64,000 nt of DNA from NCBI GenBank assembly GCA_017545185.1, contig JAFWQJ010000003.1, positions 43,615-107,614 on the forward strand. Reading direction: 5' to 3'. The notes beneath the pieces were generated by a model. The model was not told where the DNA came from. It ran no database searches and saw only the letters and a program-made list of their open reading frames with translations. The DNA comes from Oscillospiraceae bacterium. Lineage in GTDB: Bacteria > Bacillota > Clostridia > Oscillospirales > Ruminococcaceae. Shown in pieces: positions 2,194 to 54,379 of the stretch. Both the position numbers and the translations under genes were made by a program. Numbering within the stretch: the first letter of the stretch is position 1; the number at the start of each line of letters is the position of its first letter.

Positions 2194-4008
2194 TCACTTC
2201 ACCTGCATTTCCGTTTTCAGCGCAGCGGTCAGACGGTCGTTGTCCGCGCTGCCGCGGATCGCGATGCGGATGAACGCACCGCCGCCCAGCTTCTTTGAAA
2301 GGTCTTTGATCAGGATCGAATGCTTCACCAGCAGCAGCTTCGTCAGCTGTGAAGCGGCCATGCCGTTTGTGAGCTCCGCCGTGAAATAATTTGCCTGTGA
2401 CGGGATCACGCGCAGACCGTTGATTTCAGAGAGTGCTGCCGCAAACCGACTGCGCTCGGCACGGAAGCGGACAAGCGCAGTTTCGTAGTCCTTGTTGTAT
2501 TTTTCTGCGATCTGCATATAGAATTCGCCGAAGGAATTGATGTTCCAGATCGCGACGTCCTTTTTCATCGCTGCGATCAGCTCCGTATCGCCGGAAGCCA
2601 GCACGCCGAGGCGCAGGCCGGGAACGCCGTAGGATTTCGAGATGCTTTTCATCACATACAGCCGCGGGTATTTGTCAAGGATTTCCTGACGGATCAGCGT
2701 CGCATCCGGTTCGTCCGCAAAATCGACAAAGGATTCGTCGATCACAAGGCGGATGCCCTTTTCGGCAGCCCAGTCACAAAGACGCAGCAGGTCGGCCTTC
2801 GGGATATAGCTGCCGGAGGGATTGTCCGGATTCACCACGACCAGACTGCCGATCTCCTTATCTGCGAAAAATTGCATCAGGTCGTCCGCCGTATAGGAAA
2901 GGTCGGCATTGTGCGGATAAAACGAAACGGACTGTGCCGGGTCAAAGCGGTTCGGATATTCCTCAAAGGTCGGCCGGACAAAGCCGGTTCTGCCGCCCAG
3001 CTGCTCCATGAGGGATTTGATCAGCTCCGCCGCGCCGTTCCCGACGATGATGTTTTCCTGTTCTACGCCGAAGTTCTTGGCGGCCAGCAGCGCATTGACC
3101 TTCATGCCGGAGGGATACTGCGTCAGCAGCTTCTCAAAGCTCGCCTTGATCTCGTCGATCAGGCGCTGCGGCGGATAGAACGGATTGACCAGATAGCAGA
3201 AATCCAGCACCTGCGGATACCTCCAGTAGCCGCCGTACCGTGACTGGATCAGGCTGACCTTTTCATCGTCGTCCGGCGCGAACATGGACGCGGCAATGTC
3301 AAGATCCTGCAGATCGTCGATCTCGTACCAGAGCTGCCCGCTGAGCCGCTTTGCCTTGATAACCGGGATATCGAGCATTGTGATGACCTTCAGCACCTGC
3401 TCGTAATACTCATTGTTGCCGAGTGCTTTGGAATAGGCGTCCAGAAACGGGATATAGTGCGTCTCCGAAAAGCGGCGGCTGAACTTGTAGATATTCACGG
3501 TCTTGTAATAGCTGCCGATCTCGTTGAAGCGGAATTTGTCCTTGCTGACGAACGCCTCAATATGGTCGTCGTCGTCGATCCGGACGCAGGTGCCGTCCAT
3601 CCAGCTTTCGTATTTGTCCACGAGGGCAAGCGTATCACGCGGGTCGTCCAGCAGCAGGTCAATGACCGCATCCTCGAAGATTAGGTCGGACTCAAACAAG
3701 AGCGTATCGTCGCTGCAGAGATAATCCTTCGCAAGCGCGAGCGAATAGATATTGTTGGTCTTATAGTAGATCGGGTTTTCCACATATTCGATCGGCGTGC
3801 GGATGCCGAGCGTATCAATGTACCGCTTCAGTTCCTCCGCCTTGTAGCCGACGACAATGACGATCCGCCTGAGCCCCTTTTTCTCGATCTGCCGGAGCAT
3901 CCTGTCGATCAGGGTCTCCCCGTTCACCTGCACCATGCATTTTGTATTGCTGCGCGTCAGGTTTTTCAGCCGTTTTCCCATGCCTGCCGCCAAAATTACA
4001 GCCTGCAT
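2194..4008 (-). CDS. bifunctional nucleotidyltransferase / class I-II aminotransferase fusion
   Basis: Residues 1 to about 235 are a sugar/alcohol-phosphate nucleotidyltransferase (LicC/GlmU-N type) with AVILAAGMGKRLKNLT and the downstream K of TKCMV. Residues about 245-604 are a fold-type I PLP enzyme like HisC or CobD, with NPDNPSG for cofactor contact, DESFVDF for the ring aspartate, and SKSYGVPGLRLG holding the Schiff-base lysine and carboxylate arginine. A protein that makes an amine or amino-phosphate and then activates it with CTP or another NTP is a reasonable reading. NTP-transferase/transaminase fusions are known in phosphonate (aminoethylphosphonate) activation, but there the transaminase is a different PLP class. 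First gene of the operon, with its own strong promoter. Confidence 0.82.
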   Translation of the reverse strand: MQAVILAAGMGKRLKNLTRSNTKCMVQVNGETLIDRMLRQIEKKGLRRIVIVVGYKAEELKRYIDTLGIRTPIEYVENPIYYKTNNIYSLALAKDYLCSDDTLLFESDLIFEDAVIDLLLDDPRDTLALVDKYESWMDGTCVRIDDDDHIEAFVSKDKFRFNEIGSYYKTVNIYKFSRRFSETHYIPFLDAYSKALGNNEYYEQVLKVITMLDIPVIKAKRLSGQLWYEIDDLQDLDIAASMFAPDDDEKVSLIQSRYGGYWRYPQVLDFCYLVNPFYPPQRLIDEIKASFEKLLTQYPSGMKVNALLAAKNFGVEQENIIVGNGAAELIKSLMEQLGGRTGFVRPTFEEYPNRFDPAQSVSFYPHNADLSYTADDLMQFFADKEIGSLVVVNPDNPSGSYIPKADLLRLCDWAAEKGIRLVIDESFVDFADEPDATLIRQEILDKYPRLYVMKSISKSYGVPGLRLGVLASGDTELIAAMKKDVAIWNINSFGEFYMQIAEKYNKDYETALVRFRAERSRFAAALSEINGLRVIPSQANYFTAELTNGMAASQLTKLLLVKHSILIKDLSKKLGGGAFIRIAIRGSADNDRLTAALKTEMQVK

Positions 4009-4077
4009 TTTTTCACATCCTTCCGTTTTTCCGTATTCTCATCGCAAGCAAATAAATACATATTATAACAACTTCAT

Positions 4078-4106
4078 ATTATAGCAAATTCCGTTTGCCG
4101 TGTCAA
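4078..4106 (-). promoter_or_regulatory. sigma-A promoter of the 4008-1 operon
   Basis: On the minus strand TTGACA (4106-4101) is followed after exactly 17 bases by TATAAT (4083-4078), 70 bases before the ATG at 4008. The rest of the 4009-4230 interval is AT-rich and holds no supported gene. Confidence 0.8.
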
Positions 4107-4230
4107 CTGACAAAACGCATTTTTCACAGCAAAAACATACATATCGCAAAATTGGTTGATATTTCACAAAAGATAAAAATTATGTTGATATACAGAATAC
4201 AGCCCGTTTTTCTCCGGAAACATGCACAGG

Positions 4231-4264
4231 CAGAAAAACCGGAGCGCATTCACGCTCCGGTCAG
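4231..4264 (-). terminator. Rho-independent terminator of the sigma/anti-sigma operon
   Basis: A stem ACCGGAGCG/CGCTCCGGT (4238-4261) with a 6-base loop is followed on the minus strand by TTTTT. It lies just after the stop of the anti-sigma gene. Confidence 0.8.
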
Positions 4265-4272
4265 GTTTGCGG

Positions 4273-5157
4273 TCATGATGTTTTTCGGTGCAGATCGCGC
4301 CACGCCAGATATTCCTCGGAAAGCCGCTCGTCCTCGGTGATCCCCTGCTGCACGCTCGTGCTGTTCAGCGGCTCCGCGCTTGTTTCGACCAGCGACTGAT
4401 AGCTGCCGGACAACGTGCAGTACCGGAACTGCTGCCCCGTGATCTTCTCATCCGGGAAGGCGGCCTGCATTCTTTCCGTCAGCTCGACCATGTTTTTGTA
4501 TGCGTCACCCTTTGACATTTCCCGCGCATCCCACACATACCAGTAAATGCGGTGATACTGCGTTTTCAGGTCTCTGCCGCTGACGACCGTATATAACCCG
4601 ATCTGCTCCCCCGGTTCAAGCCCCTCGGCAGTCAGTTCGTCGCGGAACGCCGCATACTGTTCATTCAGCGCATTATGCTTCTGCTCGCCAAGCTTGCCGT
4701 CAATGATGAAATCATTGCGAAGCTGATAGGCTAGCCCGTATCCGTCGGAAACATACTGCCCGTTGTACCAGTCAAAATGACAGCGGATCTTGCTGCCGGA
4801 ATACGCCGAAAGCCGCGACTCCGCACGCAGCTTACCGATAAGCGGCACATAGCCGAGCCCGTAACAGATCACCCCGAATCCAAGCAGCAGCAAAGTCAGC
4901 AGCGTCAGACCGCAGCCTGCAAACACCTTCCGGACGCGCGATCTGCGCCGCACCTTTTTGAGTGCCGCCTTTGCCTCCGGCAGGTCGGCAGGCGGTTCCG
5001 CATCCGGCTGCTCCGGAAATGCCGCATAAAGCTTCCGGCATTCCTCACAGATTTTCAGATGCTCCTCGACCAGCTGCTTTGTTTCCTCGCTGCAGAGCCC
5101 GTCGTGATAGACCGGGAACAGGTCGCCGATCACCTGACAGCTTATCGTTTCATTCAT
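4273..5157 (-). CDS. membrane-anchored zinc-finger anti-sigma factor
   Basis: The N-terminus carries the HxxxCxxC zinc-binding anti-sigma motif (EEHLKICEECRKL). A hydrophobic segment follows near residues 78-108 and then an extracytoplasmic domain of about 185 residues with no recognised fold. This is the usual plan of a ZAS-type anti-sigma factor that holds an ECF sigma factor at the membrane. I chose the second ATG (5157) because AGGAGG then sits nine bases upstream; the ATG at 5163 is too close. Its start overlaps the stop of the sigma gene by eight bases, as expected for a co-expressed pair. Confidence 0.82.
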   Translation of the reverse strand: MNETISCQVIGDLFPVYHDGLCSEETKQLVEEHLKICEECRKLYAAFPEQPDAEPPADLPEAKAALKKVRRRSRVRKVFAGCGLTLLTLLLLGFGVICYGLGYVPLIGKLRAESRLSAYSGSKIRCHFDWYNGQYVSDGYGLAYQLRNDFIIDGKLGEQKHNALNEQYAAFRDELTAEGLEPGEQIGLYTVVSGRDLKTQYHRIYWYVWDAREMSKGDAYKNMVELTERMQAAFPDEKITGQQFRYCTLSGSYQSLVETSAEPLNSTSVQQGITEDERLSEEYLAWRDLHRKTS

Positions 5158-5659
5158 CGTCATCCGCCTCCTTCATCATCGCGAGCAGTTTCTTTTTCGC
5201 GCGGAAAAATGTTACGCCCGCCCAGTTTGCGTTTTTGCCGAACAATCTGCCGATCTCACTGAACTGCAGCTCCGCGAACACCCGTAGCAGAAAGACCTCC
5301 TTATAGGGCTCCTCCAGCTGATGCAGCAGGCTGTGGATCTCCATGGAGCAGTCATGTGTCTCGGCCTTCTCCTGCAGATCGCCGGATGCGGGCTGCTCCG
5401 GCACCTCGTCCAGCGGGAGCGGACGGTCTTTGTTCTTTTTCAGCCAGCGGCGGTATTCATTCCTTGCGATCGCGCAGAGATATGTTTTGATCGAGCATTC
5501 TCCGCGGAATTTGTCCGCAGAAAGCGAAAACTGCAGCAGCGTATCCTGCAGGATATCCATGGCAAGCTGCTCGTCGTTCGTCATACGCAGGATGAATCTG
5601 TAAAGATCGGCACTGTAAAGCCGGTAGATCTCCTCGAATGCACTGTCCGTCGCGCCCAC
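5150..5659 (-). CDS. ECF-family RNA polymerase sigma factor
   Basis: The 169-residue protein has sigma region 2 (FEEIYRLYSADLYRFILRM... ILQDTLLQF) and a C-terminal region 4 helix-turn-helix (YKEVFLLRVFAELQFSEIGR...). No sigma 1, region 3 or extra C-terminal domain is present, so it is a minimal ECF sigma factor. The only possible start is the GTG at 5659, since an in-frame stop precedes it. The purine-rich AAAGGGG touches that GTG directly, so initiation spacing is abnormal and the true start is uncertain. It is paired with the anti-sigma gene downstream. Confidence 0.88.
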   Translation of the reverse strand: MGATDSAFEEIYRLYSADLYRFILRMTNDEQLAMDILQDTLLQFSLSADKFRGECSIKTYLCAIARNEYRRWLKKNKDRPLPLDEVPEQPASGDLQEKAETHDCSMEIHSLLHQLEEPYKEVFLLRVFAELQFSEIGRLFGKNANWAGVTFFRAKKKLLAMMKEADDDE

Positions 5660-5671
5660 CCCCTTTCACTT

Positions 5672-5699
5672 CATTAGAGTACAGATGACGCGGTTTCAT
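5672..5699 (-). promoter_or_regulatory. possible autoregulated ECF promoter
   Basis: On the minus strand TGAAAC (5698-5693), a common -35 element of ECF-dependent promoters, lies about 35 bases before the coding start, and no TATAAT-type box is present. The -10 part cannot be assigned with confidence, so this rests on one element and on the habit of ECF genes to autoregulate. Confidence 0.3.
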
Positions 5700-5722
5700 T
5701 ACAGGATCTCAGAAAAATTATT

Positions 5723-6634
5723 TCATCCCGCCTGACTGTTCATCAATGCATGGATCTCCGGGAGCGCCGGCGGATGCAGCGGCAGCGGAAAACGCGTGAT
5801 TGCAACTGCGGCACAGGCCGCGGCAAACCGGACGGTCTCCGCATCGTTCATGCCGTGCAGCAGCGCGTATACACAGCCCGCCTTGAATGTATCTCCTGCG
5901 CCGAGCGTGCTCTTTACCGGAACGCAGAACGCGGGCATCCGGTGGGTCGGCCCGCCTTTTCTGCCGAACAGCATCTCCCCGCTCCCCTGCGTCAGGATCG
6001 TCAGGCCGTCCTTCTCCTGCTTCATCAGCTCCATGAGATCCTCCGGCGCTGCTGCGGCACCGTACTGCGCCGTGCATTCATGTGAGATCACATTGACCGC
6101 GGCGTAACGGTGCAGCGCGGAATCATGGCGCGCGTCGATCGTCACATACGGGATCCGGTGCTTCACGCAGAGCTCCGCGGCCAGCAGCGATTCCGCACCG
6201 AAAAAAGGGTCGATCGCGGCAGCGCGGCAGCCTGTGATGTCCGTTTCCCGCGGGATGCTCCACCAGCGTTTTCCGGACGAGAACAGCGCCTGAAATCTGC
6301 CCATCGGAGATCGCACCTGCCCGCCGATTACGACATAATCCATGACGCCCGGATCATCGGGCATCGGCTGCAGCGGTGACAGATCGACCTGCCTGTCCGC
6401 ATAAAACGCCTGCAGCATCGGCAGAACCGCCGTGCCGATCTGTGTGCCGTCCATGCGCACGGAAACGCCAAGCGCATCCAATACGGTCGCGGCGTTTCCG
6501 GTCTCCCCGCCCGGCAGAAAATACTGCGCTGCGATCTCTGCGTAGGTATCCGGCTGCAGAAAGCCGTCCTTCAGTAAAAAAGAATGCGTACCGAGAATCT
6601 GCCCGAACAGATAGACCTCCGGTGTATGCTTCAC
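5723..6634 (-). CDS. PfkB/ribokinase-family carbohydrate kinase
   Basis: The 303-residue protein has the PfkB C-terminal signature with the catalytic base (STLGAGDTFKAGCVYAL, near residues 250-267) and an N-terminal GG-type substrate region (ETGNAATVLDALGV). Family members phosphorylate sugars or nucleosides with ATP. It is somewhat shorter at the N-terminus than ribokinase and the substrate cannot be called. Translation starts at GTG 6634, eight bases after AAGGAGGG. No other sugar gene is adjacent on this strand. Confidence 0.82.
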   Translation of the reverse strand: MKHTPEVYLFGQILGTHSFLLKDGFLQPDTYAEIAAQYFLPGGETGNAATVLDALGVSVRMDGTQIGTAVLPMLQAFYADRQVDLSPLQPMPDDPGVMDYVVIGGQVRSPMGRFQALFSSGKRWWSIPRETDITGCRAAAIDPFFGAESLLAAELCVKHRIPYVTIDARHDSALHRYAAVNVISHECTAQYGAAAAPEDLMELMKQEKDGLTILTQGSGEMLFGRKGGPTHRMPAFCVPVKSTLGAGDTFKAGCVYALLHGMNDAETVRFAAACAAVAITRFPLPLHPPALPEIHALMNSQAG

Positions 6635-6750
6635 GGGAATCCCTCCTTTTTGTTATTGTTCCGGCTTCATTATAACATAAGCGCTGCGGGAAATCAAGCA
6701 TCCGGCAAGCTGTTTATTCTGCTGATTCCTGCATTTTCGGCATTCTGAGA

Positions 6751-6779
6751 TTGATAAAAGCCGAAAAGTATGGTATACT
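6751..6779 (+). promoter_or_regulatory. promoter of the dockerin protein gene
   Basis: TTGATA (6751-6756) and TATACT (6774-6779) are separated by 17 bases and lie about 50 bases before the chosen ATG. Confidence 0.65.
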
Positions 6780-6830
6780 ATAATGTTGTATGATATATCC
6801 ACTATCATCGCAGAGAAAGGAATAAAAAAT

Positions 6831-8957
6831 ATGAGAAAATGCTATATCTTTGCAATGGCGGCGCTGCTGTGCTGTACATCGGCCGTGCTGCCGGTACAGG
6901 CTGCATCCGTTCAGGCGGAAGCGGACGCTCCTGCAGCAGCGGAATGGATCGGCACCGGAACCGAAACAAAGAATATAACGGTTTACGATGCTGCAAACAA
7001 CGGCTCGTTCCGGATGAGCGGCCGGATCTATACGCAGGGCATTGTATTCACAGGCGCCTCCAATGACATGGAGAACAATGCCGTTTCAACGGTCACGTAT
7101 GATGTCTCCGCGTTCAGTACGATCAGCTTCACTGTCGGTCATGTGGATAATACCGTGCTCAACAGCGGCACGCTGACAGTCAGCAAGGACGGTCAGGAAG
7201 CAGATTCCGTTTTCCTTTCTTACAACATCACCGCAAGGGAATATACGCTGGATGTTTCGGATGCGCAGTCTGTCACGTTCACCGTCACGGTCAACGGAAA
7301 ATCCCAGTTCGGCTTCGGCAGTATTTCCGCGGACGGCAGTGAGCCGGAAAAGCCTTCCGCCGCACCGGAATACGATGCACCGGAAAAGCTGATGAACACC
7401 GGCTACAACATGCTGAACACGGCGGTCTATACCGCAGCGGACAAGAGCCAGTCCTTCAAAATGAACGGCAGGACCTATTATCAGGGACTTGTTTTCAGCG
7501 GCGGCGCGAGCTACAATGAAACAAATGCATCCCTGTTCACGGTCAATACGGAGAACGTCAGCAGGCTCCGCTTTACGGCCGGACACATCGACAACGCGGC
7601 CAGAAAAAACGCAACCGTCAAGATCTACCGCGACAATGTACATGACGAAGCAGAGGACATCGTACTGACGCCGGACATGGCACTGAAGGAATATGAGCTC
7701 GATGTCAGCGATACCAAATGTCTGCTGCTCTGGATCGACCGCGGCGGCGATTCCGTGTATGCATTCGGAGATATCTCCGTGAATGAAAAGGAATGCGGGC
7801 TGAAATCCGCAGCACCGGTTTACGCGTCCCCGGAAAAAATGCTGAACGCTTCCTTCAACAACGAAAATATTACCGTATGCAGCGCAACAGATCAGAGCCA
7901 GTCCTTCAAAATGAACGGCCGAACCTATTATCAGGGCATTCAGTTCAACGGCGGTATGCCGTACTATGACCCCAACACCTCACGCATTTCGTTCAATACC
8001 GAAAATGTCAGCAGGCTTTCGTTCACCGCGGGGCATCTTGACAACACGGCACTGAAGGACGCGACGCTGTATATCTACCGCGACAATGTAAAGAGCGACG
8101 AGGAAACGATCGGTCTGAGTGCTTCCATGCCGCTGAAGGATTACGTGATCGACGTCACCGATACCGGCGTTCTGACGCTTGTCATGGAGCGCAAAACAAA
8201 ATCGGACAGCTCCGTCAGCATTTCCGGCTACGGCTTTGCGAATGTCTCCTTTGACGGCAGGCAGGCTGAACTGGAATGCAAGATCCCAAAGTATACGGAT
8301 ACCGCACAGCTGCTGAAGGCAGGCTTCAATACGCAGAAGGCTGCTGTTTACTCCGGCGACGACACCTCCAGGACCTTCACGGTCGGCAGCGAGACATACA
8401 GTCAGGGCATCGTATTCGGCGGCGGCAATTTCTATACGCCGCAGACGGAAAACCGCATCTCGTTCAATGTTGAGAACACCGGCGCCGTGACAATGAAGCT
8501 CGGCTGCGTGCAGAGCACCGACGGCAAGGAGGATTCCGTCATGCGCGTCATGCTCGACAATCAGGAGATCCGTCAGATCCCGCTGAAAAAGGATATGCCC
8601 GTCCGCGATTACACGTTCAATACCGCAGGCAGCGCTGTGCTGGAGCTGGTCGTTCCGGTCAGCTACACGGACAGCTATGCAGCGGCCGATATCCGGCTTT
8701 CCGATACGCCGGTAATCCTGCGCGGTGATGTCAACGGAAACGGAGAGGTCGGCGTCGATGACGCACAGATCGCCCTGAGAGCATATACAGAACGCCTCTC
8801 CGGCAAGCCGCTCCCGCTGAACAAGGCACAGACCGAGGCCGCCGATGTGGATGATTCCGGCATCATCAGCATTGAGGACGTTCAGCTGATTCTCAAGTAT
8901 TACACCGAGAATACCGTCGCGGGAAAGAAGGTTTCGTGGGAAGCGCTGATACAATAA
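6831..8957 (+). CDS. secreted dockerin protein with four tandem NPCBM-like modules
   Basis: Start ATG 6831 is chosen because GAAAGGA precedes it and it opens a classic signal peptide (MRKCYIFAMAALLCCTSAVLPVQA). The 708-residue product then has four related modules of about 150 residues starting near 35, 183, 333 and 490. Each contains a motif like FKMNGRTYYQGLVFSGG, which recalls the NPCBM (novel putative carbohydrate-binding module) family. The C-terminus (from about 632) is a type I dockerin with two calcium loops (GDVNGNGEVGVDDAQ and ADVDDSGIISIEDVQ). No catalytic domain is visible, so it may be a binding or structural cellulosome component. Modules 2 and 3 are the most alike, suggesting recent duplication. 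Confidence 0.85.
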   Translation: MRKCYIFAMAALLCCTSAVLPVQAASVQAEADAPAAAEWIGTGTETKNITVYDAANNGSFRMSGRIYTQGIVFTGASNDMENNAVSTVTYDVSAFSTISFTVGHVDNTVLNSGTLTVSKDGQEADSVFLSYNITAREYTLDVSDAQSVTFTVTVNGKSQFGFGSISADGSEPEKPSAAPEYDAPEKLMNTGYNMLNTAVYTAADKSQSFKMNGRTYYQGLVFSGGASYNETNASLFTVNTENVSRLRFTAGHIDNAARKNATVKIYRDNVHDEAEDIVLTPDMALKEYELDVSDTKCLLLWIDRGGDSVYAFGDISVNEKECGLKSAAPVYASPEKMLNASFNNENITVCSATDQSQSFKMNGRTYYQGIQFNGGMPYYDPNTSRISFNTENVSRLSFTAGHLDNTALKDATLYIYRDNVKSDEETIGLSASMPLKDYVIDVTDTGVLTLVMERKTKSDSSVSISGYGFANVSFDGRQAELECKIPKYTDTAQLLKAGFNTQKAAVYSGDDTSRTFTVGSETYSQGIVFGGGNFYTPQTENRISFNVENTGAVTMKLGCVQSTDGKEDSVMRVMLDNQEIRQIPLKKDMPVRDYTFNTAGSAVLELVVPVSYTDSYAAADIRLSDTPVILRGDVNGNGEVGVDDAQIALRAYTERLSGKPLPLNKAQTEAADVDDSGIISIEDVQLILKYYTENTVAGKKVSWEALIQ

Positions 8958-8962
8958 CAGTG

Positions 8963-9000
8963 AAAGTGGTCATTTGTCGCCTGACAAACGACCACTTTTC
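8963..9000 (+). terminator. hairpin after the dockerin gene, overlapping a shared operator
   Basis: AAAGTGGTC pairs with GACCACTTT around an inner TTTGTC/GACAAA stem, followed by a short T-rich run (TTTTCTTT). It can act as the terminator of the dockerin gene. Its right half (CAAACGACCACT, 8985-8996) is also repeated before the ADP-ribose hydrolase gene at 51.7 kb. Confidence 0.55.
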
Positions 9001-9019
9001 TTTCAGTCTGTGCTATAAT
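8985..9019 (+). promoter_or_regulatory. promoter with CAAACGACCACT element, ADP-ribosylglycohydrolase locus
   Basis: The element CAAACGACCACT (8985-8996) lies exactly 17 bases upstream of a perfect TATAAT (9014-9019). The same 12-mer at the same distance from a -10 box occurs at 51592-51626. No TTGACA-like -35 is present, so the element occupies the -35 position and may bind a regulator. Confidence 0.6.
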
Positions 9020-9092
9020 GGGATCATCAAAGGCGAATCACATCGCCGGAGACAATAAAACCATTGTGCAAAGACGAAAAGGAGGAGATAAA

Positions 9093-9479
9093 ATGAAAGA
9101 GTATACTTTGGAAGCAATAGAACTGCGGATTCTGGCAAAAGCAGCGCTGATCACCGATCACGATCATGAAGCGTTCCATAAGCTTTCTGAGGATTATAGA
9201 GCGATCTGCGGCCATCCGCCGTTCTGCGGCTTCGATGACTACAGCTATGAGGGCGCTGATGAAGAAGCAAAAATAGAACGTGACTGGGTGCAGGCAGCGA
9301 AAAAAGGCAGAGCCATGGAAACGAATCATTCTGTAAATGCAAACAAAAAGGAGGGGTTCCACATGATCGGAGCAATGTTAGGTGATATGATCGGGCGCCC
9401 TATGAGTTTGACAGGGGCGCAAAAACCAAGGACTTCCCGCTGTTCGGCAGAGGCTCGCACATCACGGACGATTCCGTGA
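9093..9479 (+). CDS. N-terminal fragment of a frameshifted ADP-ribosylglycohydrolase locus
   Basis: ATG 9093 follows AGGAGGAG. The first 90 codons (MKEYTLEAIELRILAKAALI...) encode an acidic soluble segment that I do not recognise. At 9363 the frame continues, without a stop, into MIGAMLGDMIGR, the typical start of an ADP-ribosylglycohydrolase, which has its own AAGGAGG eight bases upstream. The frame is then lost at 9398-9401 and ends in unrelated residues at 9479. The 90-residue segment could be a separate small protein whose stop was lost, or an N-terminal extension of the hydrolase. Confidence 0.5.
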   Translation: MKEYTLEAIELRILAKAALITDHDHEAFHKLSEDYRAICGHPPFCGFDDYSYEGADEEAKIERDWVQAAKKGRAMETNHSVNANKKEGFHMIGAMLGDMIGRPMSLTGAQKPRTSRCSAEARTSRTIP

Positions 9480-10159
9480 TGACAGCCGCGGTCGCGGAGG
9501 CACTCATGGAAAGCAGCGGCAGATCCGATGACGAGATCAAAGCGGCGCTGATCCGCTCCATGCAGAAATGGGGCAGACGCTATCCGGATGCGGGCTACGG
9601 CGGACGGTTCATCCACTGGCTGTTCACAGCGGATCCGCAGCCGAACGGCAGCTACGGCAACGGCTCCGCAATGCGCGCGTCGGCGGCGGGGTGGATGTCC
9701 GACGACGTTGACACCGTGCGGCATCTCGCGGCGCTGACCGCGGAGGTCTCGCACAATCACCCGGAGGGCATCAAGGGCGCGGAGGCGACGGCCGCTGCGA
9801 TCTGCCTTGCGAGAAACGGCAGCAGCCTCGCGGAGATCAAAGCATACACCGAACGGGAATTCGGCTATGACCTTTCCGGAACATGTGCGGAGCTCCGGCC
9901 GAAGAACCGGCACAACGAGACCTGTCAGGTGACGATGCCGCTGGTCTTTGCGGCATTCCTCGAAAGCACGGACTTCGAGGACGCGATCCGGAACGCGGTT
10001 TCGCTCGGCGGCGACACAGACACGATCGCCTGCATCACTGGCAGCATTGCGGAGGCTTTTTACGGCGTCCCGGCGGAGATCGAAGCGGAGGGCAGAAAGC
10101 GTCTGCCGGACGACATGCTTGCGCTGCTCGACCGGTTCACGGCACAGTGTAAAGCGTGA
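9476..10159 (+). pseudogene. ADP-ribosylglycohydrolase (DraG/ARH family), frameshifted
   Basis: This frame carries most of a DraG/ARH hydrolase: upstream of its first ATG it reads DFPLFGRGSHITDDSVMTAAVAEAL, which includes the metal-binding DD, and near the end SLGGDTDTIACITGSIAEAF supplies the second metal-binding D-x-D-T. Such enzymes remove ADP-ribose from arginine or other acceptors. The matching N-terminus MIGAMLGDMIGR lies in another frame from 9363. One extra C at GCCCT (9398-9401) would restore R-P-Y-E-F-D-R-G-A-K-T-K across the join. So the gene spans 9363-10159 and is either inactivated or carries a sequencing error. Confidence 0.8.
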
Positions 10160-51384: not shown

Positions 51385-51473
51385 TTTCCGCAAGGGAAAT
51401 ACCGGCGCAGCGGGACTTTTCTTTCCTCTGCCCCGCGGCTGCAGCATTGATTTTTACGGATTGATGATTTGAA

Positions 51474-51513
51474 AAAAGCTGAGTCGGTTCAGTTGACCGA
51501 TTCAGCTTTTTCT
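51474..51513 (+). terminator. terminator of the LRR gene
   Basis: AAAAGCTGAGTCGGT/ACCGATTCAGCTTTT stem followed by TT. Confidence 0.85.
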
Positions 51514-51582
51514 ATTGCAATCGTCTGAAATCATGTTATAATATTGTATTATTTCTTTATCCGGAATCAGAATCATCAAATT

Positions 51583-51691: not shown

Positions 51692-54379
51692 ATGAGAGAC
51701 AGAAGTCAGGATATCCGCATATTTGAAGATACCATGCAGATTTTGAAGCAGGACTGGTACGAGAAAAACGGGAAGCGTATTCAGTTAAAGCTCACGGCAG
51801 AGCAGATGCAGGAGATCCAAGTGTATCTGCCGGAGGATGTGCGGAATTACAGCAGCCGCAGGGACTTTCAGCCGCCGATTGTCCTCGGGCGCTGCGGATA
51901 CGGCTGCGAAAACACGGATTCCTTTGCGCTTGCCAGAAAGCGGCTCGGCGCCGCGCACCTTTTTACGAAAGAGGATAAAGGCATTCTGGTGCTGAATTTA
52001 GCCAGCGCGGTGCATCCCGGCGGCGGTGTCCGGCGCGGTGCCAGAGCGCAGGAGGAGGATCTTTGCCGGAAAAGTTCCCTGCTGCTGTCGCTGGAAAGTG
52101 ATGCGGCAAAAGCATATTACGATTATAACAGAAGCCTGAACACGCTGATGGGCTCGGATGCGCTGATGATCACGCCGCAGGTCGAGATCATCAAGGACGA
52201 AAACGGCGAACTGCTTGACGATACGGTCATTGTCTCCGTTCTGACCTGTGCCGCGCCGAATCTGGCACACGGCATGGAAGGCATGAGCGAAAAAGCGTAT
52301 CAGGATATGGTTTACAACCGCATCATAGGGATGCTGAAATGTGCGGCGTTCTTCGGCTATCGGCATCTGGTGCTCGGTGCATGGGGCTGCGGCGCGTTCG
52401 GCAACGATGCGCACCTGATCTCCGATCTGTTTTATCAGGCGCTGAAGGAGATCGACTACAACGGACACGGCGAGAAAGATTTGTTCCGCAGGATCGACTT
52501 TGCTGTGCTTGACCGCACGCCGGATCAGTATAACTATAAGGAGTTTTACCGGAACTTCTCATTCGACAACTTCTACCGGGAAGAAAATCAGCAGGAAATT
52601 GATGAAGCGCTCCGCTGCATCAAAGAAACAGAAGTGCATCTCGATCAGATCCGCGGCTGCATGGTCGGCGGCGCTGTCGGTGACGCACTCGGTTACGCCG
52701 TTGAATTTTCGGACGAGGACAAAATCTTCTCGAAATACGGCGCATCCGGCATTACCGAATACGAAACCGATCAACGAACCGGAAAAGCACTGATCTCCGA
52801 TGATACCCAGATGTCGCTGTTCACCGCAAACGGGCTGCTGTTCGGGCATACCCGCGAATGCATGAGGGGCATTGCTGCATGGCCGAGATTCTATGTGCAG
52901 TCGGCTTATCAGGACTGGCTCAGAACGCAGGAGATCTCTTATGCAGAAAGCAGAAAGCGCCGGGAAGATACACAGCACCGCGTTTCGTGGCTGTTGGATC
53001 TTCCGGAGCTTTACAGCCGCAGAGCCCCCGGAAACACCTGCCTTTCTGCGCTGCAGAAGCAGAAAAACGGGAACAACGATACAGAGGACTTTATCCGCGA
53101 ACCGCAGAATGACAGCAAGGGATGCGGCGGCATCATGAGAATTGCGCCGCTCGCGCTCAGATATCCCCGTGCGGATATCGAGGAGCTTGACAAGGAAGGT
53201 GCGCAGATCGCCGCGATCACGCACGGTCATTCGCTGGGGTTTATGCCGGCTGCCGTTCTGACGCATATCATTCACCGGATCGTTTTTTCTGAGGAGAAGA
53301 TGCCGCTCAAAGCGATCGTGACCGAAGCAAAAGAAACGGCGGAAAAGCTGTTCCGCGGCGACAGGCATCTGAAAGAACTGACGGATATCATCGAACTGGC
53401 GGTCGCTCTCTCCGAAAACGATGCCCCTGATCCTGCGAATATTCACCGCATCGGGGAAGGCTGGGTCGCAGAGGAAACGCTCGGCATTGCAATTTACTGT
53501 GCGCTTCGCTATCAGAATGATTTTTCTGCCGGCGTAATCGCCGCGGTCAATCATAAGGGCGACAGCGATTCAACAGGTGCCGTGACCGGCAATATTCTCG
53601 GTGCGCTGCTTGGCTATGATGCCATTGACGCGAAGTGGAAAACGGCTCTCGAGCTGCTTGACGTCATCCTTGAGATCTCGGATGATCTCTGTCACGGCTG
53701 CCAGATGGACGAATACAGCCATTATGAAGACCCCGACTGGACGAGAAAATATATTTATATCCAGTGGAAAGATGCGAAGCCGGAGCCCGCTGCAAAAACG
53801 CAGTTTCTTGCCGTGCGCGGGGACATTACGGAAGATCACGGCGTGCAGGCGATCGTGAATGCCGCGAATACCAGTCTGCTCGGCGGCGGCGGTGTGGACG
53901 GCGCGATCCACAGAGCGGCCGGGCCGGAACTGCTTGCGGAATGCAGGCTGTTGAACGGCTGCAAAACCGGTAAAGCAAAGATCACAAAGGCGTACCGGCT
54001 CCCCTGCAGCTATGTCATCCACACGCCAGGACCGCACTGGAACGGCGGCAAATCCAATGAACGCGAGCTGCTTGCTTCCTGCTATCGCTCCTGTCTGGAA
54101 CTTGCTGTTGAAAACGGGATCCGGAGCATTGCGTTCCCGTCGATCGCAACCGGCATCTATCAGTTTCCGCTGGATGAAGCGGCACAGATCGCAGTAAGAA
54201 CGGCAAAGGCGTTTACGGCAGAGCATCCGGGCGCACTGGATGTGATCAAGTGGGTGCTGTATGACATGACCACATGCAAGGCTTATACGGATGCGCTTGA
54301 ACATTGGGAAGCATCGGAATTTGTGCAGTCACCGGACTTTTACGCGATCAACCGGATGCTCCGCGATGGCGGCGTGTAA
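51692..54379 (+). CDS. PARG - ADP-ribosylglycohydrolase - macrodomain triple fusion
   Basis: The 895-residue protein joins three ADP-ribose hydrolase families. Residues about 10-290 are a microbial-type poly(ADP-ribose) glycohydrolase with the GGG-X6-QEE signature ([15 protein letters not shown], near 110-124). Residues about 315-680 are a DraG/ARH fold with [19 protein letters not shown] and [17 protein letters not shown], which carry the two-metal site. Residues about 705-880 are a MacroD-type macrodomain ([41 protein letters not shown]). All signature residues look intact. It could strip ADP-ribose from different linkages. No signal peptide; monocistronic. Confidence 0.92.

Follow-up and report, generated by a model that had tools for sequence, protein, structure and literature searches.

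PARGs occur in many bacteria that lack PARP, and their role there is a standing question (PMC4245714). In the same paper the bacterial enzyme is termed a single-domain type, and a bacterial fusion of an ARH3-like with a MacroD-like enzyme is put forward as what may be an 'all in one' eraser of PAR, so that the idea of a two-domain ARH-MacroD eraser has been in print since 2014. ARH-centred host systems thought to counter viral ADP-ribosylation have been predicted as gene neighbourhoods with regulators and phosphatases, in which ARH stands without a coupled transferase and sometimes with Macro or NADAR; the word PARG is absent from the main text of that paper (PMC9503650). In DarT-DarG and DarT-NADAR pairs an ADP-ribose eraser acts as the antitoxin.

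Here we analyze a gene from an Oscillospiraceae bacterium, contained in a 64-kb stretch of DNA (hereafter, the window), that encodes a microbial-type PARG, an ARH/DraG-type domain and a MacroD-type macrodomain in one chain of 895 residues. Its PARG is a family match to the microbial-type enzymes (DUF2263/TIGR02452; the PARGs of T. curvata and D. radiodurans, and S. coelicolor SCO0909), but whereas bacterial PARG is termed single-domain in PMC4245714, here it forms the first third of a chain of three erasers. The succession of ARH and MacroD in one bacterial chain, with both active sites kept, resembles the proposed 'all in one' eraser, but no PARG is named for that fusion there, and with its additional PARG the window protein falls outside the type; in the ARH-Macro proteins of its genus (L021, L022, L351, L353) the ARH is shorter than that of the window protein. 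The ARH domain has its fold and metal residues in common with the ARH/DraG family (ARH3, ARH1, DraG and the Tri1 and Lmo0067 immunity proteins), but no paired transferase gene was found for the window protein. The MacroD domain is like MACROD2 and YmdB in both loops but sits between the ARH domain and a conserved tail. With the predicted ARH-centred systems the protein shares an ARH without a coupled transferase, sometimes joined by Macro or NADAR, but it is one chain of erasers rather than a neighbourhood of genes (PMC9503650). NADAR is present in relatives (L030, L035), as in the DarT-NADAR pairs, but no DarT was found in the genome and no transferase lies next door. The earlier note on this DNA knew of no described protein with all three domains, and we likewise found no PARG-ARH-Macro protein in the open-licence PMC literature, outside which most subscription journals fall; the sources covered include the accessible text of PMC11833690, PMC4245714, PMC9503650, PMC11125620 and PMC7050489.

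The protein is encoded in a single open frame, from an ATG at 51692 to a TAA at 54377-54379, with no internal stop (Table 1). A Pfam search at E 0.01 returned three families only, each far above its cut-off: PARG_cat_microb (PF10021; residues 13-169, E 5.3e-27, 95.4 bits against a cut-off of 23.5), ADP_ribosyl_GH (PF03747; residues 322-647, E 3.2e-67, 228 bits against 26.2) and Macro (residues 722-834, E 3.4e-47, 160 bits against 22). Among the NCBIfam models, TIGR02452 matched residues 11-286 (155 bits, cut-off 50) and the MacroD-type model PRK00431.1-6 residues 704-871 (208 bits, cut-off 200); the ARH domain scored under the cut-offs of the DraG and Tri1 models. The domain search proposed in the earlier note thus recovered all three domains in the one chain, with their catalytic residues kept. 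We rejected a frame or assembly artefact as unlikely because a single frame is kept in relatives at 93%, 83% and 58% identity and because dN/dS against the relatives L026 and L025 lies between 0.08 and 0.15 in each domain. Every domain is under purifying selection, with values for PARG, ARH and Macro of 0.14, 0.13 and 0.08 against L026 and of 0.11, 0.09 and 0.15 against L025 (against L028, synonymous sites are saturated in all three domains); with values this low, no domain looks like dead freight.

Table 1. Features of the gene and its flanks (window coordinates; A1, alignment A1)
Feature	Coordinates	Strand	Basis
PARG-ARH-MacroD gene, 895 aa	51692..54379	+	ORF, Pfam, NCBIfam, structure model
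Microbial-type PARG domain, residues 4-289	51701..52558	+	
PARG catalytic loop GGG-X7-QEE, residues 110-122	52019..52057	+	motif read-off; definition PMC7050489
ARH/DraG-type domain, residues 313-671	52628..53704	+	
E338, column of the DraG 'VEF' glutamate (Glu flap position)	52703..52705	+	phmmer alignment to 2woc; invariant in A1
ARH metal motif SDDT, residues 369-372	52796..52807	+	A1, alignment to DraG
ARH metal motif DSDS, residues 624-627	53561..53572	+	A1, alignment to DraG
Low-confidence ARH-Macro linker, residues 672-701	53705..53794	+	pLDDT <50 at 672-699; A1
MacroD-type macrodomain, residues 702-872	53795..54307	+	
NAAN loop, residues 723-726	53858..53869	+	motif read-off
MacroD GGGGVDGxIH-type loop with D736 and H740, residues 731-740	53882..53911	+	motif read-off
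C-terminal tail, 15 residues	54326..54370	+	A1; same tail after ARH in Macro-less L027
Promoter-like site TTGCAA-16-TATAAT (putative)	51515..51542	+	consensus scan
Hairpin upstream of gene	51473..51511	.	stem near-identical to downstream hairpin
Hairpin just past stop codon	54394..54428	.	terminator-like by eye; not called by the consensus scan

The signature residues are in place, with one correction of spacing. GGG occupies residues 110-112 and QEE residues 120-122 of the PARG domain, seven residues apart rather than the six first read, which lies within the published motif GGG-x(6,8)-QEE (PMC7050489); as a point of caution, a serine replaces the first glycine in L026 (SGG; A1). The two-metal DD and D-x-D-S of the ARH domain correspond to D370-D371 and D624/D626/S627, which together with E338 are invariant across the eight rows of A1. 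Both MacroD loops, NAAN included, were found as described in the earlier note, and the window MacroD, which matches MACROD2 at 2e-46, retains N, D and H. All three domains were matched to known folds in a structure model with pLDDT 87.5 (an earlier model from a 9-row alignment was poor, with pLDDT 58.3). The ARH domain combines the PF03747 match with the all-helical ARH fold; its nearest neighbour is ARH3 by fold and DraG by sequence, the two rankings differing, and its fold matches include immunity proteins of toxin pairs (6dre, 8za7). Since PARG, too, belongs to the macrodomain class (PMC11833690, PMC7050489), two folds make up the chain, with two macrodomain-class hydrolases flanking one ARH, in place of the three unrelated folds first supposed. 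Judged by residues and predicted fold, catalysis by each domain is likely, and the same evidence points to the linkages that each might cut.

The PARG-ARH-MacroD architecture is rare, as emerged from the survey that the earlier note had proposed. Intact triples were seen at five loci, the window, L025, L026, L028 and L330. Within the genus, full-length matches occurred in 3 of 30 genomes (E limit 1e-3), namely the own genome and two others at 93% and 83%, which are the same genes as L025 and L026. No triple beyond that of the own genome was found in samples of the family (297 genomes, limit 1e-60), the class (391 genomes, limit 1e-80) or the phylum (398 genomes, limit 1e-60); these samples overlap, all genome samples lie within one phylum, and the E-value limits were strict except in the genus search and the PARG census. 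In another family, 24 of the 182 genomes searched had any match at 1e-60, and one triple was among the loci returned (L330, in G1251). A scan of contigs from 84,980 species, which picks up close relatives only, gave eight loci: the triples L025, L026 and L028, the PARG-ARH proteins L027 and L029, an ARH-NADAR-Macro protein (L030), an ARH (L031) and a PARG with an ARH stub (L032). The PARG census of the class sample found 18 genes in 15 of 391 genomes, although its PF10021 search missed the broken PARG of G672. Five of the 18 lie in frames longer than 450 aa: the window gene, the PARG-ARH genes of G548 and G593, and two PARGs of G575 that are fused to a nucleotidyltransferase (Pfam was run on one of the two). 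Three ARH matches of the family sample in frames of 813-1133 aa (G266, G179, G037) proved free of PARG, Macro and NADAR by HMM search.

Comparison among relatives shows PARG-ARH as a recurring core to which a MacroD, another macro type or a NADAR-MacroD has been gained or lost as a cassette. Macro is absent from the PARG-ARH proteins L027, L029 and L050, and the C-terminal tail, which follows Macro in the window protein, comes straight after ARH in L027 (A1). In L030, which reads ARH-NADAR-Macro and has mostly lost its PARG, NADAR-Macro fills the Macro slot of the window protein, with NADAR at the position of linker residues 672-701 (A1). The decayed PARG-ARH gene L052 has, beyond ARH, just parts matching residues 702-733 and 864-894, and a domain suspected to be common to the extra ends of L028 and L332 came down to a match of just 25 residues. 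Other orders are Macro-NADAR-ARH (L035) and ARH-Macro (L021, L022, L351, L353). The PARG-only proteins L008 and L033 nest with the window clade (96/92, and 98/88 in another tree), which suggests that they have lost the other domains. Domain loss in these two and in L027, L029 and L050 implies that the triple is not always needed.

The triple of the other family is built differently. In L330 the order is PARG-ARH-tail-Macro, with the tail first and then the macro, and the macro reads GSGVCGAIF at the MacroD loop, with C and F for the D and H of MacroD; it shares 64% identity with the macro of a Macro-NADAR protein. Forcing it together with the window-type macros was rejected (p-AU 5.3e-6) in tree tests whose groups were named after the first tree had been seen and from which L196, L198 and the long-branched L005 were left out; the macro tree also carries a warning about a meeting of two long branches at L004. 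The core tree places L330 as sister to the Macro-less L027 (100/99). Given this macro type and these sister cores, the PARG-ARH-Macro triple seems to have originated at least twice. Holding the macros of the window, L028 and L030 as one clade gave p-AU 0.086, and another tree groups them with standalone MacroDs in one starred clade.

Several relatives lie beside genes known from defence. DpnI (325 bits) is directly upstream of L025; L213 (G593), whose PARG-ARH is split into two reading pieces, has DpnI (322 bits), a PDC-S02-like nuclease (61 bits), two macro proteins and an ABC-type protein (102 bits to mad3) that is assigned to transporters by Pfam; the decayed L214 (G672) has PDC-S01 (382 bits) and PD-T4-3 (161 bits); L027 has PDC-S41 (812 bits) and KptA; and a phage integrase adjoins L030. 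Flanks of L029 gave UvrD-type matches only, and no defence or mobile neighbour was present among the few ORFs scanned around L026, L028 and L344. PADLOC was applied to 20 selected flanking ORFs, all of them from loci other than the window and L026, and the defence neighbours were noticed after looking. In a marker control, DpnI was found in 2 of 11 core loci and in none of 41 other regions, of which 32 are single-eraser loci (Fisher test, 0.035 for 2/10 with L032 left out; about 0.04 by hand for 2/11). The association of DpnI with core loci is weak, and because the choice of markers followed inspection of the core loci, the excess is a lead and not proof. In the 32 single-domain regions (21 ARH, 11 PARG; some cut by contig ends), other erasers were in reach in one, L291.

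The surroundings of the window copy itself are of another kind. By Pfam, its neighbours are a two-component pair, HtrA, an FMN reductase, an unmatched ORF and a leucine-rich repeat protein, with a GH5-CBM6-dockerin enzyme as the next gene downstream, followed by two unmatched ORFs; the same scan gave no ADP-ribose gene (transferase or eraser) and no defence or mobile gene. When the flanking ORFs of eight loci were compared they were unshared, with two exceptions, one upstream region common to the window and L026 and a weak pair in L027 and L032 (28%). On either side of the gene stands a hairpin, and the two have almost identical stems (GCTGAGYCGGT/ACCGAYTCAGC), for which paired terminators or the ends of a mobile cassette are candidate readings; no further copy of the stem was found in the window or in eight other, partly overlapping loci of the own genome, and L026 retains the downstream hairpin and a worn upstream one. 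The window also contains a second ARH gene (9018-10159, + strand), with 82% identity to the ARH of the ARH-Macro protein L021; its beginning is in one frame and its main part in another, which marks it as interrupted or mis-assembled.

Searches for a transferase partner covered the whole genome. No PARP scored over the cut-off, the single match (21.4 bits against 26.7) being KptA, which is present as KptA/Tpt1 (PF01885, 164 bits) on a different contig from the window gene. No DarT was found by a search that was positive in 1 of 14 control genomes; searches for ART (PF01129) and exotoxin (PF03496) domains were empty in this genome and in the controls too, so that their silence says little. Four more matches of macro or PARG type to the query are present in the genome. 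We rejected a toxin-antitoxin pair, given that searches found no DarT in the genome and no transferase among the Pfam-scanned neighbours. No PADLOC family matched the protein at E 0.01. A known phage or plasmid gene was likewise rejected, since 80% query coverage was reached nowhere in 50,697 phage and 72,556 plasmid records. In viral contigs the single-protein search gave no match, and alignment searches and HMMs gave no PARG-ARH, ARH-Macro or triple frame; they did give one Macro-NADAR fusion (L259), two erasers as separate genes in six contigs (L101, L115, L144, L216, L238, L267), and, in L092, a PARG (58% identity) that runs off the end of the contig.

We propose that the protein is a multi-linkage eraser that undoes foreign ADP-ribosylation and serves in immunity generally, with no toxin as its partner, a reading to which we give an even chance of being right. 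Three pockets on one chain would remove ADP-ribose from different linkages: the PARG pocket from ribose hydroxyls and phosphate ends, the ARH pocket from Ser- or Arg-type links, and the MacroD pocket from Glu/Asp esters and phosphate ends. The protein would in this way clear ADP-ribose put on the cell's proteins and nucleic acids by transferases of phages or rival bacteria. Among the enzymes tested in PMC11833690, removal of 2'-OH RNA adducts was confined to PARGs, whose bacterial members protected E. coli from the RNA-modifying transferase RhsP2; activity on phosphate ends was also seen with macrodomain and ARH enzymes. Glu/Asp links are cut by MacroD enzymes, and PAR is a substrate of ARH3 (PMC4245714). 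With all three domains, one chain could therefore cover several of the linkages made by foreign transferases, guanine excepted. Guanine-linked ADP-ribose was removed only by NADAR enzymes in the panels tested (PMC11833690), so the window chain should miss it, and the 'all-purpose' eraser first imagined is to that extent too broad; the NADAR cassette of L030 would add this activity. We infer the defence role from the missing partner transferase and from the neighbours of relatives. Protection against phage- or toxin-borne transferases, as suggested in the earlier note, is thus plausible, with no PARP over the cut-off and no DarT found in the genome and some relatives beside anti-phage genes, but the neighbours of the window copy give it no support.

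More tentatively, and with somewhat less than even confidence, we suggest that the PARG-ARH core with its swappable MacroD, second-type Macro or NADAR represents an undescribed modular 'omni-eraser' family that moves through defence islands and has been selected at least twice to gather three erasers, so that one enzyme neutralises many ADP-ribosyltransferases of phages or rivals. A triple chain with at least two origins, and with some relatives beside DpnI, PDC-S41, PD-T4-3 or an integrase, gives the question of PARG without PARP a direct test; if active, the protein would be a single reagent for stripping several ADP-ribose linkages.

An alternative, which we regard as unlikely, is that the protein is an RNA-end repair partner of KptA/Tpt1, with KptA adding 5'-phosphate ADP-ribose or releasing ADP-ribose cyclic phosphate and the three domains cleaning up. 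The own genome does encode KptA, and a bacterial PARG was the most active enzyme on the 5'-phosphate adducts that a KptA-like enzyme produces, which are substrates of macrodomain and ARH enzymes as well (PMC11833690). In L027, moreover, KptA and PARG-ARH belong to one co-directional row (2792-10097) of PDC-S41/Schlafen-type helicase, KptA, Smr, a small ORF, PARG-ARH, an esterase and DinB (by eye), in which the KptA start overlaps the helicase stop. However, KptA is at only 1 of 11 core loci, and the copy in the own genome sits on another contig than the window gene.

It is slightly more doubtful that the protein is a housekeeping eraser of a putative ADP-ribosylation of the cell's own proteins, such as that by sirtuins or unrecognised transferases. 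The gene resembles a single transcription unit, with its promoter-like site and hairpins, in an ordinary chromosomal setting, and all of its domains are constrained; against this stand its patchy occurrence within the genus, neighbours that vary between loci, and the domain swaps and decay among relatives.

We think it very improbable that the protein is a reader-eraser, in which one domain, most likely a macro, anchors the chain by binding ADP-ribose while the others cut. With C and F at the D and H positions, a binding role is possible for the macro of L330, but in the MacroD of the window protein N, D and H are all present, and its dN/dS is the lowest of the three against L026, though the highest against L025. 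Least credible is a role in scavenging from the gut, with ADP-ribose polymers or ADP-ribosylated food material as the source: recycling of environmental PAR has been suggested as one role of bacterial PARG (PMC4245714) and the next gene is a dockerin-type cellulase, but no signal peptide is seen by eye at the N-terminus of the protein, which is probably cytosolic, and no transport or NAD salvage gene lies among the Pfam-scanned neighbours. The multi-linkage immunity enzyme remains our preferred reading.

Other combinations of erasers were met during the searches. Macro-NADAR fusions occur in L259 (2944-4392, the viral contig) and L210. A CTP_transf_like nucleotidyltransferase is fused to PARG or NADAR in L205 and L206 (G575), L209 (G232) and L215 (G162); in L215 the NADAR fusion is directly beside an ARH gene, which hints at NAD re-synthesis coupled to erasing. 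The 966-aa frame in L291 (7601-10498) begins with PARG, followed by SGNH-hydrolase-like, zinc-ribbon-like and FHA-like parts (by eye), and has ARH and macro genes in reach. Frames of 813-1133 aa contain an ARH in L348 (2358-4844), L349 (3236-6634) and L350 (3058-5496), together with an N-terminal region of about 200 residues and a C-terminal region that is HD hydrolase-like by eye; a separate gene that looks alike is just upstream of PARG-ARH in L213 (7690-8136). A small frame in L344 (11215-11553, - strand; VITLCGSTRFKDEF...), with no Pfam match, ends 3 bases ahead of the frame of the second-origin triple in G1251. Seven bacterial loci (L016 at 1477-2574, L004, L005, L017, L018, L020, L034) and ten viral loci (L221-L223, L233, L235, L238, L240, L241, L263, L267) have a C-terminal extension of about 115 residues behind a macrodomain, with no Pfam match when run from L016. 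In L208 (1683-2864; G235), NADAR is fused to a DnaB-type helicase domain.
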